In this document: one piece after another, positions 27,955 to 33,406 of the stretch
How the letters are laid out: each line of letters begins with the position of its first letter
Numbering within the stretch: the stretch's first letter is position 1
Assembly (NCBI GenBank): GCA_022821145.1
Contig: JAJEEE010000011.1
Span: forward strand, 1 to 33,406
Reading direction: 5' to 3'
DNA: 33,406 nt
Source of the DNA: Acidobacteriota bacterium
Lineage (GTDB): Bacteria; Acidobacteriota; Terriglobia; 20CM-2-55-15
Position numbers and translations under genes: made by a program
Notes under the pieces: generated by a model
The model's database searches: none
What the model saw: only the letters and a program-made list of their open reading frames with translations
Told to the model about the DNA's origin: nothing

Positions 27955-28197
27955 ATGAAGAACATCACTGTCGCGTTGCCGGAAGACACGGCCTTGTGGT
28001 TGAGCGATCGGGCCGCCGAGCAGAATCGAAGCGTCTCGATCTGGTTGGCCGAGTTGGTCGAGCAGACGCGGCGCCTTGATGCCGAATACGAAGTTGCGAT
28101 GGCCCGCGCCCTGGCCAGAAAGCCGCGACAGGTGGGGTGGATCGACGGGCGAAGGCCCACACGGGACGAGATGCACGAACGGTCCGGCTTTCGTTGA
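27955..28197 (+). CDS. RHH antitoxin, vapB-like, copy 1
   Basis: An 80-residue ribbon-helix-helix antitoxin (MKNITVALPEDTALWLSDRAAEQNRSVSIWLAELV), with a C-terminal tail RRPTRDEMHERSGFR that would wrap its PIN toxin. It is a close paralogue of the gene at 29484; most differences are conservative. The frame is intact, but its toxin partner directly downstream is broken, so it may act as a stand-alone anti-addiction factor or cross-regulate copy 2 (inference). Confidence 0.8.
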   Translation: MKNITVALPEDTALWLSDRAAEQNRSVSIWLAELVEQTRRLDAEYEVAMARALARKPRQVGWIDGRRPTRDEMHERSGFR

Positions 28198-28338
28198 GGC
28201 GACCGTACGCAGCTTCTCGCGACGATGCCTCTATCCCGGGCAAGACGGCCCGCGCCGACGCTGGGTCTACGCGCCTCCAGCGATCGCGAACCGGCCGGTT
28301 GAGCTTCCAGGTTCCGCAAGATCGTTATCGCGGAAACA
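28175..28338 (+). pseudogene. Remnant of a PIN-domain (VapC-like) toxin
   Basis: The position matching the ATG of the intact toxin at 29704 is ACG here (28175). The first residues read NGPAFVEATV against TGPVFVDTNV, losing the catalytic Asp. A frameshift near 28215-28230 moves the homology to another frame (SRTGRLSFQV, identical to the intact toxin). Similarity stops around 28338, next to the minus-strand antitoxin. Start loss, frameshift and truncation together make it a clear pseudogene. Confidence 0.85.
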
Positions 28339-28343
28339 CTCCA

Positions 28344-28574
28344 TCAGCCGAGGTCAACGATCCGTCCCGTCGATGGGTCTCGCTCGATCGACAACTCGAC
28401 GCCGACGAGCGGGGAGGAGCGCAAGAACGCCACCAAGTCACGAGCCGTTTTCGCACTTGGCAACGAAAGCATGGGTTGCAGAGTCTTGCGAATACGCTCG
28501 GCTTGTTCCCCGCCGGCACGCAAAGCTTCGGAAACCGCCTCGACCAGGGACGCGTCGTCAGAGGAGATGGTCAC
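28344..28574 (-). CDS. Orphan antitoxin-like protein with Phd-type C-terminal tail
   Basis: A 76-residue frame from a GTG at 28574 (GGCGGG upstream); the frame stays open further 5' without recognisable sequence, so the start is tentative. The second half, DLVAFLRSSPLVGVELSIERD, resembles the toxin-binding tail of Phd/YefM antitoxins. The first half (TISSDDASLVEAVSEALRAGG) is not the usual Phd DNA-binding fold. No toxin follows on the minus strand: the downstream DNA is the plus-strand vapC remnant. Product function is inferred from the tail and the neighbourhood. Confidence 0.55.
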   Translation of the reverse strand: MTISSDDASLVEAVSEALRAGGEQAERIRKTLQPMLSLPSAKTARDLVAFLRSSPLVGVELSIERDPSTGRIVDLG

Positions 28575-28734
28575 CTCGACCCGCCGGGAGACGCTGCCCG
28601 GGATTCTCGTGCAGTGACGGGCGACACGAGATCCTTGTCCAGTTGCGTGCTGGGTGTTTTCCAAAGTCAGAGCCTTCTCCGGTGACGTTTCCCGGCAGCA
28701 TGAGGCAGATCGGTCAGGTCTTGGCGCCCGGATT

Positions 28735-29030
28735 TCAGACGCGCCGTTGCCATGTCCTCGGATCCCGTGACTGGTGCACGACCGCAATGACTTCGATCCA
28801 CTCGGGCAGGATCCGGTAGAAGACTGAGAACGGGAACTTGCCGACAAGAGCGCGACGGACCGTCGACTCGACTGTCTGGTACGGCCGAGGTCTTTTCGCG
28901 ATCAGACGGATCGTTGTGTCGACCTCTTCCTCGAACGATGCCAGTACGTGTGGGGCCTCGTTCAGATACCACTGTTCGGCAAGCGCGAGGTCCTGCACGG
29001 CGGCGGACGTAGCCGGACGCGCAAGGTCAA
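28735..29030 (-). pseudogene. ParE/RelE-family toxin with an N-terminal frameshift
   Basis: The frame ending at 28735 encodes DLALAEQWYLNEAPHVLASFEEEV, RALVGKFPFSVFYRI and VIAVVHQSRDPRTW, a clear ParE toxin. Its only usual start codon is a GTG at 28998, which would drop the first beta strand. A TTG overlapping the antitoxin stop (29028-29030) reads TTG-T-L-R-V-R, a typical ParE opening, in another frame. Inserting one base near 29012 would join the two as RVR-x-TSAAVQDLALAEQWY and give a standard protein of about 98 residues. So this is either a one-base deletion or a sequencing error. Confidence 0.75.
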
Positions 29031-29257
29031 GTCGTGTCGGAGAACACCTGCTTGCGGACTGCCTCCCATGAGGCCGAGCGCTCCTCCGGCAGAATGCCCT
29101 CCAGCGCCGCCAAGCGGTCACGAATGAGGCTTCGCTGCCAGTCGGGGACCGGAATCTCCCCTGGCGCCAAGCTGTCCCAGAGATCGACCACGAGTTCGAT
29201 GCGCTCCTGAGCCGACAGGTTGAGCGCTTGTCTCTGGATCTCAGACTTGGCCAGCAT
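29027..29257 (-). CDS. Addiction-module antitoxin (RelB/TIGR02574 type)
   Basis: A 76-residue protein: MLAKSEIQRQALNLSAQERIELVVDLWDSL, then PDWQRSLIRDRLAALE and SWEAVRKQV. This is the short helical antitoxin family encoded upstream of ParE/RelE toxins. The start is ATG 29257. A TATCCT box lies 6 nt upstream, suggesting a leaderless message. It is intact, although its toxin is frameshifted. Confidence 0.85.
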   Translation of the reverse strand: MLAKSEIQRQALNLSAQERIELVVDLWDSLAPGEIPVPDWQRSLIRDRLAALEGILPEERSASWEAVRKQVFSDTT

Positions 29258-29263
29258 GGCTTC

Positions 29264-29269
29264 AGGATA
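29264..29269 (-). promoter_or_regulatory. Possible -10 box of the minus-strand antitoxin
   Basis: On the minus strand TATCCT ends 6 nt before the ATG at 29257, as in the other leaderless candidates here. No good -35 box is found at 16-18 nt, so support is limited. Confidence 0.35.
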
Positions 29270-29448
29270 TCCGTTTCTGCGGATTTCGAACAGACCAAAG
29301 GGGGCCAGTCCATACAGACGTCCGCCCTCAGAGCACGATGGGCTCGACCGAAGTCGGAATCGACCAGTTTGCCGAATGGACCACGGCTTGGTCCTTGCCG
29401 TACCATGTCCGTATGTTTCAGGAGGACGGAGCCGACTGCGGAGCGTTA

Positions 29449-29477
29449 TTGACACGAGTTTCGTGCGTTACTATTCT
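29449..29477 (+). promoter_or_regulatory. Strong promoter and operator of the intact vapBC-like pair
   Basis: TTGACA (29449-29454, perfect), a 17-nt spacer and TATTCT (29472-29477) end 6 nt before the ATG at 29484, predicting a leaderless mRNA. The inverted repeat CACGA-GTT-TCGTG (29453-29465) overlaps the -35 and spacer. It is a good candidate operator for repression by the RHH antitoxin. Confidence 0.7.
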
Positions 29478-29483
29478 CGTGGT

Positions 29484-29726
29484 ATGAAGAACGTCACTGT
29501 CACGCTGCCGGAGGATACGGCGTTGTGGTTGAGGGTCCGGGCCGCTGAGGCAAACCGGAGCGTTTCAAGCTGGCTGGCTGATTTGGTCGACGAAATGCGG
29601 CGGCATGAGGACGACTATGAAGTTGCGATGACGCGCGCACTTGCCAGAAGGCCGCGGAAGATGGAGTGGATCGACGGGCGTAGGCCGACGCGGGACGAGT
29701 TGCATGACCGGTCCGGTTTTCGTTGA
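29484..29726 (+). CDS. vapB: RHH antitoxin, vapB-like, copy 2
   Basis: An 80-residue antitoxin: strand MKNVTVTLPEDT, two helices (ALWLRVRAAEANRS, VSSWLADLVDEMRRHE), and a basic tail WIDGRRPTRDELHDRSGFR that likely neutralises the PIN toxin. It overlaps the toxin start by 23 nt. It lies 1529 bp downstream of its paralogue, in the same orientation. Intact and with a consensus promoter, it is the functional antitoxin of the pair, presumably autoregulating through the promoter palindrome. Confidence 0.85.
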   Translation: MKNVTVTLPEDTALWLRVRAAEANRSVSSWLADLVDEMRRHEDDYEVAMTRALARRPRKMEWIDGRRPTRDELHDRSGFR

Positions 29727-30207
29727 TACGAACGTACTGGTCTACCGCGCCGATGGATCCGAACCGGGCAAGCAGGCCTGCGCTGACGCTTGGTACACGT
29801 TCCTCTGGCGGTCCCGAACCGGTCGGTTGAGCTTCCAGGTTCTGCAAGAGTTATATTCCGTACTCACACGCAAGTTGACGCCCGGGTACAACGAGAGTGA
29901 AGCGCGCGAAATCGTGCGCGAACTGACCGTCTGGAAACCTGTTCCGGTCGATCTCTCCGTCATCGAGAGCGGCTGGTGGTTGCAAGAGCGCTATCGACTG
30001 TCCTGGTGGGATGCGCTGATCGTCGCGGCCGCCAGCAAGTGTGAATGCAGTGTGCTGCTGACCGAGGATCTCCAACACGGGCAGGTCTTCGAAACTGTTC
30101 GAGTGATCGATCCGTTCGCGGAGTCGGCCCGAACGCCTGTCGAGGTGCTGGAGTCTGTAGAAGCCATGCCGCCACCCATGGTGCCCGGAGTCGCGGACGA
30201 TTCGTGA
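29704..30207 (+). CDS. vapC: PIN-domain ribonuclease toxin (VapC-like)
   Basis: A 167-residue toxin from the ATG at 29704, inside the antitoxin gene. The PIN metal site is complete: Asp8 (VFVDTNVLVY), Glu49 (QVLQELYSVL), Asp103 (WWDALIVAAA) and Asp122 (LLTEDLQHGQ). VapC toxins cut tRNA or rRNA. After the usual end at VRVIDPF comes an extra tail of about 32 residues, rich in Pro, Glu and Val and not typical of the family. It is coupled to the antitoxin upstream and probably active. Confidence 0.9.
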   Translation: MTGPVFVDTNVLVYRADGSEPGKQACADAWYTFLWRSRTGRLSFQVLQELYSVLTRKLTPGYNESEAREIVRELTVWKPVPVDLSVIESGWWLQERYRLSWWDALIVAAASKCECSVLLTEDLQHGQVFETVRVIDPFAESARTPVEVLESVEAMPPPMVPGVADDS

Positions 30208-30584: not shown

Positions 30585-33326
30585 TTACTCTTGATCTCGT
30601 CCGAAGTCGGCCGCCGCCAACTGCACGAGTCCGTTGGGGTGCTTGAAGCTCGTGCTATCGGCGGACAGCAGTTGGTGTGCCCGGTTGTCGATCTCGTTCC
30701 AGTGGTGGGCGCGTAGTTCCTTATCGGCATGCGGGACGCCAGCGGATTTCGGTTTTGACTCAAGCCACCTGAGAAGAAACGGCGGATTAGTCCGTACTCC
30801 CCCTTCAGCATCGCGAAACAAAGCCACGAGATCCTTCATGAGCGGCTGTCCTTGATCATCCTGCCATCTAAGTGCGTATGCGGAAAGCACGCCACGTTCG
30901 CCGCTCGGTGAATTCACTGACGCGTAAACGCCATCGAATCGCTGCGATTTTGCCTCATCGATCAGGTATCGAAAAAACGATGTCTCGAAATCCAAAAGAA
31001 CTACATTCGAAAAACGTTGCGCCATGCCGCGGTCCATCGTGACGCGTACAACGCTCTTGTTTCCGAACTCGGCAAATTTGCCGCGAAGGTCTTCCGGCAG
31101 GTGGAATTCGACAATTCTGCGGCCATGAAGCAATGTTTCCTTTGTTGCGCCAACTCGAAACAGCATGGCGCGAACGAACGACTCGACGTGCCGCATGGTA
31201 AGCGCCAACGCACCGCGCAGCGCGTTCGCGTCGTAACCCGCAGCGTGTGCTAGGATTTCGTCTTGCATTTTTCTGGCCGCCCGGGCGCGTTCGATGGCAG
31301 CCTCTATTTCTTGTTCCGTTCGTCCGATACGCATCGACGTCGCCGCTCGGAGAAGCGCGGCCATGTCAAGATTGTCTAGTACGTCGCCGAGCACTTGGGC
31401 ATGAAGCCGATCATTGAATTCCCGGCCCACCGGCGCCATGTCCTCGGCGATTTTCGTCACTCTTTCCATCATGAGGCTGATCGCTTGGTTGTCGAAGCTG
31501 TCGTGGGCGTGCAAATTGAGGACAACGACACTTTTCGACTGCCCGTAGCGATACAGACGGCCAATCCGTTGAACCAGTCGTGCTGGATTCCACGGAAGGT
31601 CATAATTGACCATCACATGACAAGACCGGTGAAGATTGATTCCTTCACCGCCCGCCTCCGTTGAAACAAGAAACCGGTTCGGTCCTTCGTTGAACCCCTC
31701 GATTGCGGTCAGTTTCTCCTTAAGCGTCATCGAGCCGTTTATCAGAAGTACCGAACCCGCTTCAGAGAAGCGCCGCTCCAATGCCTGCTGCAAATATGTC
31801 TGAGTGGCGCGATACTCGGTGAACACCAGCAGCTTCTTGCCTTCAGCAAAAAGCGGGGCAACCGCTTGGTCCAAAAACACACGTACTTTTTCGTCCTTCT
31901 GCCGCACGACCGCCGCGAGTTCGAGTAGTCTTACGATCTGTCCGCGCTCGAACTCAAAAAACTCCCTGCGCTGCGCCCCTTGAACCCAGTCCGTCAGGTC
32001 GTCCTGATCATCGCCGCCCTCGGCCAAGTCGGCCAAAGAAATGTCGTAATCGACGTTACTCCCATGTTGCTCTGACTCATCGAGGCGTTCGAGTCGCAGC
32101 AGCAGAGCGTTTTCAATTGCTGCGATGCTGCTCGACGCGAGTTTGCGGTATGTTGTCATGACAAATCCGATCGCCCTACCTGTTGCGCCTGCGACCGCAT
32201 CTCCGGCCTTGTATCCTCGAACGAGATAATCTCGTAACAACTCGTGAAAATGTTTGGTCTGGTCGGACGGCTTCACGGCAATCCGATACACCCTCTGCCC
32301 CCGAAAAATGAAGCGACCCTCAGAGTCGGTGACCTCCGTCTTGCGATTGCGTATGATGAGACCTGCGACTACCTCTGGATTCGCCTCTATCGTGTGAATC
32401 TGCGGAGCGAGATCTGGTCTCACCAGTTCGAGGAGCGCGAGAAAGCGGTCCCGGTAGCCTTGATGCGGAGTACCGCTCAGCAACAAAAACGCCTCCGAAA
32501 GCGGCCGCAACATCTCGGCGAGACGATATCGCTGGGCACGCTCGCCACTCGCATATCGGGTCAGCTTGTGCCCTTCATCGAAAACTACCACGTCCCAACT
32601 CCCGGCCTGACGAAACATGTCGCGGTGCCCGTCCAGCTTGGCGCGATCAATCGAAACGATTACCTGATTGTATAGCTTCCATTGTCGTGCCTCGTTGACG
32701 ACAATATCGTCGCCGTAGATGAGATAATCCTGATCGAACTTGTAGCGAAACTCGTCTTGCCATTGCTTTGTCAAACCGGCGGGACACACTACCAGCACTC
32801 GCCGAGCGCGACCGGCCCGCTTCAAGCCCGCCAGCAGCAGACCGACTTCAATCGTTTTTCCAAGTCCCACATCGTCGGCGATAAGCCAGTTGTAGTTGCC
32901 CGAATTAAGAATGCGGTGAACAAGCTGAATTTGGTGTGGGAGAGGATCGACATCCAGACGATCCAACGATCCAGTCATCCGGTTCCAATTCTCAAGTGCG
33001 TGCGCCAGGAACTTGAGGCGGAAGCGTTCGGGGTGGTCATCGACTCGCGTTTCGTGTCGCTCGTAGCGCATTTGGACATCCTTGATGCGCCTAAGATTCT
33101 CGTATGGAAGCCAGACCGACCGCCCATCATCATCGAGTTGCACCAAAACCTGTTCGCGACCGCCGATTTCCCTCCGGCCGACTACACGTCCTTCGCCGAG
33201 TGGTCTCCGTATCATTGCTGTCCAAATTAGCCGATGTTGGACGGGTTCGGCGTTGAATCCATTGGACATCATTGCTGTCCAAATTAGCCGATGTTGGACG
33301 GGTTCGGCGTTGAATCCATTGGACAT
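30585..33326 (-). CDS. SNF2/RapA-like helicase, possibly defence-associated
   Basis: 913 residues from the ATG at 33326, or 876 from the ATG at 33215, where conserved sequence (RRPLGEGRVVGRREIGG) begins. The frame is open to the right edge, so the true start is undecided. Residues about 45-80 look like a small Tudor/SH3-type barrel. The motor has HQIQLVHRIL, Walker A DDVGLGKT (151-158), motif II DEGH (250-253, not the usual DEAH), SGTPHQG and, in the second lobe, TEAGGEGINLH and QRIGRLYRYGQ. This matches HepA/RapA and DISARM DrmD-like ATPases that translocate on DNA. A long C-terminal region is unassigned. GC is visibly lower than in the housekeeping genes, consistent with transfer. Confidence 0.8.
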   Translation of the reverse strand: MSNGFNAEPVQHRLIWTAMMSNGFNAEPVQHRLIWTAMIRRPLGEGRVVGRREIGGREQVLVQLDDDGRSVWLPYENLRRIKDVQMRYERHETRVDDHPERFRLKFLAHALENWNRMTGSLDRLDVDPLPHQIQLVHRILNSGNYNWLIADDVGLGKTIEVGLLLAGLKRAGRARRVLVVCPAGLTKQWQDEFRYKFDQDYLIYGDDIVVNEARQWKLYNQVIVSIDRAKLDGHRDMFRQAGSWDVVVFDEGHKLTRYASGERAQRYRLAEMLRPLSEAFLLLSGTPHQGYRDRFLALLELVRPDLAPQIHTIEANPEVVAGLIIRNRKTEVTDSEGRFIFRGQRVYRIAVKPSDQTKHFHELLRDYLVRGYKAGDAVAGATGRAIGFVMTTYRKLASSSIAAIENALLLRLERLDESEQHGSNVDYDISLADLAEGGDDQDDLTDWVQGAQRREFFEFERGQIVRLLELAAVVRQKDEKVRVFLDQAVAPLFAEGKKLLVFTEYRATQTYLQQALERRFSEAGSVLLINGSMTLKEKLTAIEGFNEGPNRFLVSTEAGGEGINLHRSCHVMVNYDLPWNPARLVQRIGRLYRYGQSKSVVVLNLHAHDSFDNQAISLMMERVTKIAEDMAPVGREFNDRLHAQVLGDVLDNLDMAALLRAATSMRIGRTEQEIEAAIERARAARKMQDEILAHAAGYDANALRGALALTMRHVESFVRAMLFRVGATKETLLHGRRIVEFHLPEDLRGKFAEFGNKSVVRVTMDRGMAQRFSNVVLLDFETSFFRYLIDEAKSQRFDGVYASVNSPSGERGVLSAYALRWQDDQGQPLMKDLVALFRDAEGGVRTNPPFLLRWLESKPKSAGVPHADKELRAHHWNEIDNRAHQLLSADSTSFKHPNGLVQLAAADFGRDQE
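33211..33324. repeat. Exact 57-bp tandem duplication at the helicase 5' end
   Basis: Copies at 33211-33267 and 33268-33324 are identical. 57 is a multiple of 3, so on the minus strand the helicase frame continues through and would encode the 19-residue peptide MSNGFNAEPVQHRLIWTAM twice. Each copy holds GTCCAA once and TTGGAC twice, plus nested inverted repeats TGTCCAA/TTGGACA and GCCGA/TCGGC. Confidence 0.9.
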
Positions 33327-33338
33327 ACGGGCGCCGTA

Positions 33339-33363
33339 GGGGATTCCTGAGAAACAGGTCCCC
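33339..33363. other. Hairpin upstream of the helicase
   Basis: GGGGA-tt-CCTG-agaaa-CAGG-TCCCC folds into a 5+4 bp stem with a 2-nt bulge and 5-nt loop. It lies 13 bp outside the most distal helicase start. No function can be assigned; a leader structure or a mobile-element end is possible. Confidence 0.35.
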
Positions 33364-33406
33364 GGTAGTGGGCGGGTCGGCGTGTGCGGATATTCGTCAG
33401 GTGCTG

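Follow-up and report, generated by a model that had tools for sequence, protein, structure and literature searches.

The SNF2 helicases of the DISARM, BREX, Hma, Dpd and Zorya systems work within larger gene sets, and the helicase family of the Hachiman system differs from the RapA-like family. Here we describe a SNF2 helicase gene at the right end of contig C53 (JAJEEE010000011.1), from an Acidobacteriota genome of 4.18 Mb in 89 contigs; the window analysed is this whole contig (33406 bases). With a probability of about 0.7, we read the gene as part of a low-GC operon encoding an acidic partner protein and a RapA-like helicase, which has been split by an insertion sequence (IS) and whose intact counterparts each work as one anti-invader machine. 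Since the window is the entire contig, C53 holds no sequence past 33406; the other part of the operon lies on contig C89 of the same genome.

Relation to described SNF2 helicases

An earlier note on this DNA, made from its sequence alone, had placed a SNF2 helicase at 30585-33326. The open reading frame (ORF) is exact and lies on the minus strand, which that note left unstated; it encodes 913 aa with an intact motor, in which the Pfam domains SNF2-rel_dom (3.7e-18) and Helicase_C (1.1e-21) were identified. Two further details given there, a DEGH motif II and a GC content below that of the surroundings (0.557 versus 0.648 for window positions 1-27840), were likewise confirmed. As DEGH is found in 8 and DEAH in 10 of 18 aligned relatives, the glycine is ordinary for this helicase family.

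Profile scores, all obtained with a query lacking 72 N-terminal residues, were highest for BrxHI|BrxHII (331 bits) and DrmD (296 bits) in PADLOC, mostly over the motor. The motor had been described as RapA/DrmD-like. Its fold is RapA-like, but none of the DrmD, ZorD and HepA profiles reached its curated cut-off, with 319.5 bits against 610 and 162.9 against 950 for DrmD (NCBIfam), 62.5 against 1500 for ZorD and 155.8 against 576 for RapA. DpdE also fell short (187.6 bits against 500). Two same-genome controls behaved differently, the helicase on C71 matching DrmD over its full length (888 bits, PADLOC) and that on C73 matching HmaA (576 bits).

The companion genes of these systems are not beside the helicase either. 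No DrmA, DrmB, DrmC or methyltransferase was found among the 10 proteins scanned on C89 and in the window, and the only MZB domain of the genome, a DUF1998-type domain of the kind present in DrmB, is on C51. The sole PglZ match (BREX) is on C18 and the sole DUF499 match (Hma/BR) is on C73, together with HmaA and HmaB. ZorA and ZorB were absent from the same 10 proteins, with no genome-wide search made for them, and Zorya is rejected by helicase score only. Companion genes had been expected beyond position 33406, and one does exist, as the operon partner on C89, although it is none of DrmA/B/C, a methyltransferase or ZorA/B. Given the lower scores and the missing partners, the gene belongs neither to DISARM, BREX or Hma nor to a stand-alone HepA-like protein, the alternative that the earlier note had offered and which the presence of a partner gene also contradicts. 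It is instead a broken copy from an unnamed two-gene module, composed of an acidic, variable-headed adaptor and a RapA-like motor.

Structural comparison places RapA nearest in fold. For the modelled helicase of a relative (locus L054, pLDDT 75.3), RapA was the best structural match, both in its N-terminally truncated form (8spg; Z 24.3, root-mean-square deviation 11.2, 626 residues aligned) and at full length (6bog; Z 21.8, from residue 80 on), and RapA occupied Foldseek ranks 1 to 5 (top match 6bog_A, E 2.9e-32, TM 0.37), although the deviation is large and TM-scores are only ~0.4. The model suggests a RapA-like plan of N-terminal barrels, Snf2 motor and C-terminal alpha+beta region, in which the two barrels fit by secondary structure and the first is recognized by secondary structure only. 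Apart from the sequence score, the gene differs from RapA/HepA in its low GC content, its plasmid copies and the partner gene in front.

The other systems resemble this helicase in part. BrxHII of type-3 BREX, the top PADLOC match over residues 70-701, is given a plan of Tudor, Snf2 and alpha+beta domains in the relevant passage of PMC12839542, with one Tudor domain reported there against two barrels predicted here, and the only PglZ match of this genome is on C18. Passages of the same paper describe a similar helicase plan with other partners for BrxHII and DUF499-centred systems, and BREX and Hma helicases of the SNF2 type that work within larger gene sets. DrmD of class 1 DISARM shares the SNF2 motor, yet scores at about half of the NCBIfam cut-off. 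Hma shares a SNF2 helicase (HmaA, 246 bits), yet the 576-bit HmaA, HmaB and the only DUF499 match of the genome all sit on C73. Dpd shares the sub-threshold DpdE match and a weak DpdG match of one partner (L047), while one DpdG model is silent in the source genome. HamAB of Hachiman has the same two-protein layout of helicase and partner, but its partner is a nuclease and no nuclease match was present in the partners scanned here; one passage of PMC12839542 also sets the Hachiman helicase family apart.

Division of the helicase gene by an insertion sequence

The last bases of the window (33213-33406) recur at 12 places in the genome, 99-100% identical, all but one of them at contig ends. The exception, a copy on C70, is ~1.2 kb from a contig end and encodes a transposase with the Pfam domains DDE_Tnp_1 and DUF4372, by which we assign the element to the IS4 family. 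Its pieces, with the interior taken from a third contig, have a total length of 1494 bp, and their terminal inverted repeats match. Relatives carry ~70 more N-terminal residues than the window helicase in alignments, indicating truncation, and a search of the genome with a relative's N-terminus located the missing segment at the end of C89 (E 4.5e-16). There the helicase starts 35 nt behind the gene of a 460-aa partner, after which C89 enters the left IS end. An 11-bp duplication occurs once in the window and once in the stretch containing the partner (L087), each time abutting an IS end, and reading across the site as if it were empty yields a continuous 947-aa frame; along most of it, identity to the 20 near relatives is 40-63%. 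From the IS ends, the duplication and the continuous frame, it follows that the helicase gene is interrupted by an IS4-family insertion, with C89 holding the partner and the first 72 helicase codons and the window holding the rest.

The ORF appears complete because of the IS itself. A terminal 57-bp IS unit is present twice in tandem at this site (33211-33326), as opposed to once in the other 11 right ends seen, and the repeat supplies the ORF with spurious in-frame ATG starts. The gene's own codons begin at 33212, and the first 38 codons (114 bases) of the 913-aa ORF are IS-derived. In this way an IS at a contig end can make a broken gene pass for an intact stand-alone helicase.

Because the join is spanned by no contig and the IS interior is borrowed from a third one, the link between C89 and C53 might be an assembly or binning artefact, with the helicase fragment belonging elsewhere. 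This is highly improbable: the 11-bp duplication occurs once per sequence, the frame continues exactly, and partner and N-terminus stand on C89 in the same order as in relatives.

The operon is probably inactive in the source genome, as the insertion deprives the motor of the first N-terminal barrel, of the presumed promoter and of the partner. In the L054 model, the break lies past the first barrel and directly follows the opening strand of the second, on our own barrel assignment from predicted secondary structure. The N-terminal domain of RapA regulates its ATPase, so that a motor lacking the first barrel might be deregulated or disabled. Conversely, the truncated helicase might still be expressed from an IS-borne start, with the motor acting without its first barrel, since the native frame is open over all 875 codons in the window and would extend ~70 codons into the IS if the interior resembles the C70 copy. 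With IS ends at 99-100% identity, too little time may have passed since the insertion for stops to arise in an unused frame, and the partner is severed from the motor in any case; we consider continued expression unlikely.

A two-gene module in other bacteria

One scan of genome contigs returned 34 related helicase loci. The set of 24 loci considered below combines the 20 related over most of their length (L035-L054), whose records are labelled Pseudomonadota (several classes), Latescibacteria, Deltaproteobacteria and one Flavobacteriaceae metagenome-assembled genome, with the source genome (L087) and three plasmids (L091-L093). A profile built from the partner's C-terminal domain and searched against the 6089 stop-to-stop ORFs of 38 loci (E up to 1) matched 23 ORFs, every one directly upstream of a helicase (23 of the 24 loci), and none elsewhere. 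Nineteen of these are members of the profile and match by construction; the other four lie outside it, namely L087 (1.5e-33), L091 (2.5e-30), and L092 and L093 (2e-8 each). The 24th locus (L042) begins inside the partner gene, and its 154-aa tail clusters with other partners. Independently of the search with the helicase N-terminus, the source-genome partner was also found by a relatives-only profile of upstream genes (E 2.5e-37), and a five-row partner profile recovered L038 (1.6e-55), L087 (2.3e-37), L037 (3e-19), L053, L045 and L050, with others matched more weakly. No partner match was obtained in the remaining 14 of the 34 loci (L055-L068), two of which (L055 and L059) start inside the helicase and 12 of which are distant.

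The two genes are closely spaced: measured from the partner stop, the nearest possible helicase start is at -10 to +60 nt in 22 of the 23 loci with a value and at 170 nt in L091. Their protein distances are correlated (r 0.918, n=18, 0/9999 permutations). Partner and helicase thus recur as an operon in other bacteria and form a two-gene module. Three Verrucomicrobia loci with more distant helicases (L056-L058, 33%) have a different upstream gene, a frame of 1043 to 2610 aa that in L056 resembles, by eye, a sacsin/HSP90-type ATPase.

The partners combine a variable, acidic N-terminal part with a conserved C-terminal domain. In all 17 N-terminal parts counted (1 of the 18 rows was omitted as too short), the fraction of D+E was 0.15-0.35 and that of K+R 0.04-0.09, with isoelectric points (pI) of 4.1-4.5; the source-genome partner has values of 0.22, 0.06 and 4.2. 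This part differs by lineage: L045 has ankyrin repeats, L047 has weak TPR-like matches that stay below cut-off, and two Deinococcus plasmids have ~1,150 residues ahead of the partner domain. The C-terminal domain matched no Pfam family at cut-off in the 9 partners scanned (best E 0.024). Across 7 partners compared with PADLOC models, L047 gave the only matches, both weak, to DpdG within the C-terminal domain (E 0.0026) and to PDC-S14 elsewhere (0.028), and the source-genome partner gave none. One DpdG model found nothing in the source genome, with a positive control matching 1 of 14 genomes; its silence across 396 genomes of the phylum is uninformative, as the control was also silent at the stricter limit used. 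The domain was modelled as mostly helical (pLDDT 88.9, pTM 0.81), and Foldseek against the PDB returned 17 matches at E up to 10, none at or below 0.001; in a second comparison of folds, the best match was an unrelated helical binder (Z 4.0, root-mean-square deviation 5.1, 101 aligned). The domain is perhaps a new family, although such PDB negatives do not prove a new fold. No paper describing the helicase-partner pair was found among open-access titles and the starts of abstracts, which is weak evidence of novelty.

Transfer, neighbouring genes and possible role

Both genes are low in GC, with 0.573 for the partner next to the 0.557 of the helicase, and flanks at 0.681 and 0.648. The partner was found in 1 of 151 related genomes, the source genome itself; among the listed genomes without a match, one shares its genus and nine its family. 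At E 1e-60 the helicase search reached 13 of the 151, with matches outside the source genome of only 33-36% identity in frames of 927-1276 aa. Taken together with the three plasmid copies, the low GC content and this distribution point to horizontal transfer. A plasmid search with the partner domain gave one plausible Nitrosococcus record (E 0.04) and six chance-level ones. Phages were rejected as carriers, as 50 of 50,697 phage records matched the helicase and none did so over 80% of its length.

Restriction or defence-type genes were identified near 8 of the 24 loci, or 11 when weak matches are included. These are a type III-like set in L044 (MTase_III, weak ResIII and a NERD-kinase); L048 and L047, by clustering with the genes of L044; cluster 2 and 3 genes with a NERD+UvrD match in L038; a type I enzyme and a NERD-kinase in L042; a type IIG enzyme in L039; type I in L052; and, as annotated, Dsr1 with a restriction endonuclease on plasmid L091. 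The weak matches are HerA-like (L041), to a helicase (L051) and LmuB-like (L053). The pair of Amphritea atlantica is followed by a second SNF2 helicase (DrmD/BrxHII-like; L039:6606-9518) and the type IIG restriction-methylation enzyme. From this association we infer a defence role for the pair.

Several observations, along with the stop-free helicase frame noted above, weigh against our interpretation. The defence count covers selected large proteins and has no matched background to compare with; it does not extend to the flanks of L040, L043, L046, L049 and L050, and the contigs of L037 and L045 hold little beyond the pair. No defence match was found among the two neighbours each tested at L035, L036 and L054, nor, with PADLOC, any defence gene among the 10 proteins scanned around the source-genome copy, the only exception being a small HTH protein with two weak matches (2.7e-5 and 4.6e-4). 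The correlation of distances may be explicable by shared inheritance alone.

Loci of this kind, the source copy included, that have no defence neighbour among the proteins tested would also suit a horizontally carried transcription or repair factor, acting in RapA-like RNA polymerase recycling or DNA repair, with the partner linking the motor to RNA polymerase or damaged DNA. The fold argues in the same direction, as RapA is the top match along most of the protein. We nevertheless consider such a role unlikely, given the single occurrence among related genomes, the low GC content, the plasmid copies and the restriction or defence-type genes near a third of the loci. Alternatively, the pair could be an accessory of larger restriction-modification systems, working only with the type III-like methyltransferase and ResIII-type helicase of L038, L044 and L048. 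In all three, genes of clusters 2 and 3 are next to the pair or close by, and those of L044 matched MTase_III (1.4e-132), with weak matches to ResIII and REase_III. When 25 loci were clustered together with the window, these genes appeared in those three loci only and not here, neighbours vary between loci, and the cluster-2 protein of L038 has no PADLOC match, which makes this dependence rather improbable.

We therefore favour an intact partner and helicase working as one machine. The partner would dock on the helicase through its conserved C-terminal domain, sense or recruit by means of the acidic linker and the variable N-terminal part, and direct or gate a motor that translocates on double-stranded DNA (dsDNA) driven by ATP. 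The output may be the stripping or remodelling of proteins on incoming, foreign or damaged DNA, as an anti-invader module. A more detailed version, to which we give even odds, is a two-component system in which a RapA-like dsDNA motor is gated by an adaptor with a docking domain of a new family, perhaps also of a new fold, and a sensor-like head swapped between lineages, the cassette being mobile alone or beside restriction systems; the source host, which has an Hma cluster and a DrmD helicase, would have lost the module to the IS.

Apart from the partner, the genes on the 15.5 kb of C89 analysed look ordinary by eye, seven of them also by Pfam or PADLOC; next to the partner are genes for a cupin and a UPF0261 protein and, judged by eye, for a transporter. 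On the window side, toxin-antitoxin genes lie downstream of the helicase (Table 1), followed by radA, dnaB and rplI (by eye). The earlier note had called them debris, which fits only 27955-28685, where inspection by eye suggests a second RHH-like ORF in front of a PIN remnant, neither with a Pfam match; by contrast, matches of the PIN, ParE and Unstab_antitox ORFs to their families cover most of the domain. The 27955-28685 pair resembles the pair at 29220-30207, and the two copies flank the ParE/antitoxin pair.

Table 1 Features of the window around the helicase gene
Feature	Position	Strand	Basis or remark
Helicase gene, 3' 92%	30585..33212	-	Residues 73-947 of the uninterrupted frame; ORF, Pfam, alignments of relatives, empty-site frame
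Helicase regions in the window: rest of second N-terminal barrel, SNF2 motor, C-terminal alpha+beta			Predicted from a relative's model and fold match
Target-site duplication, 11 bp, right copy	33202..33212	-	Left copy at C89:33355-33365
Right end of IS4-family element (~1.49 kb)	33213..33406	-	12 genome places, length, terminal inverted repeats, transposase domains of the C70 copy
PIN-domain (VapC-like) toxin ORF	29641..30207	+	PIN 1.9e-11; directly preceded by an RHH-like ORF (by eye, without Pfam match)
Unstab_antitox addiction-module antitoxin ORF	29027..29455	-	Pfam 2.1e-11
ParE-type toxin ORF	28735..29406	-	ParE_toxin 9.3e-7, residues 133-216; true start probably downstream

Elsewhere in the source genome, C73:54943-74000 (L090, L096) carries an Hma/BREX-related cluster comprising the HmaA-like helicase with NOV_C (576 bits), a DUF1156 methyltransferase (HmaB), the DUF499 match (C73:54943-55533), an AAA_21 ATPase (HEC-01A, 504 bits) and a GmrSD_N+Schlafen protein (HEC-05). 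The full-length DrmD helicase (888 bits) is at C71:13823-17071 (L089), near a contig end. On C18, a short PglZ-domain protein (408-aa frame; C18:81277-81768, L095) stands beside a helicase-like match (C18:80399-80569; frame of 238 aa); this may be a BREX locus in decay.

The C-terminal domain of the partner represents a family that no Pfam entry matched, and no PDB match was found for its confident model. As a minimal helicase and adaptor pair that spans phyla, the module would offer a simple system for testing the role of the motor in defence, a role that the multi-gene settings of the DISARM, BREX, Hma, Dpd and Zorya helicases make hard to isolate.

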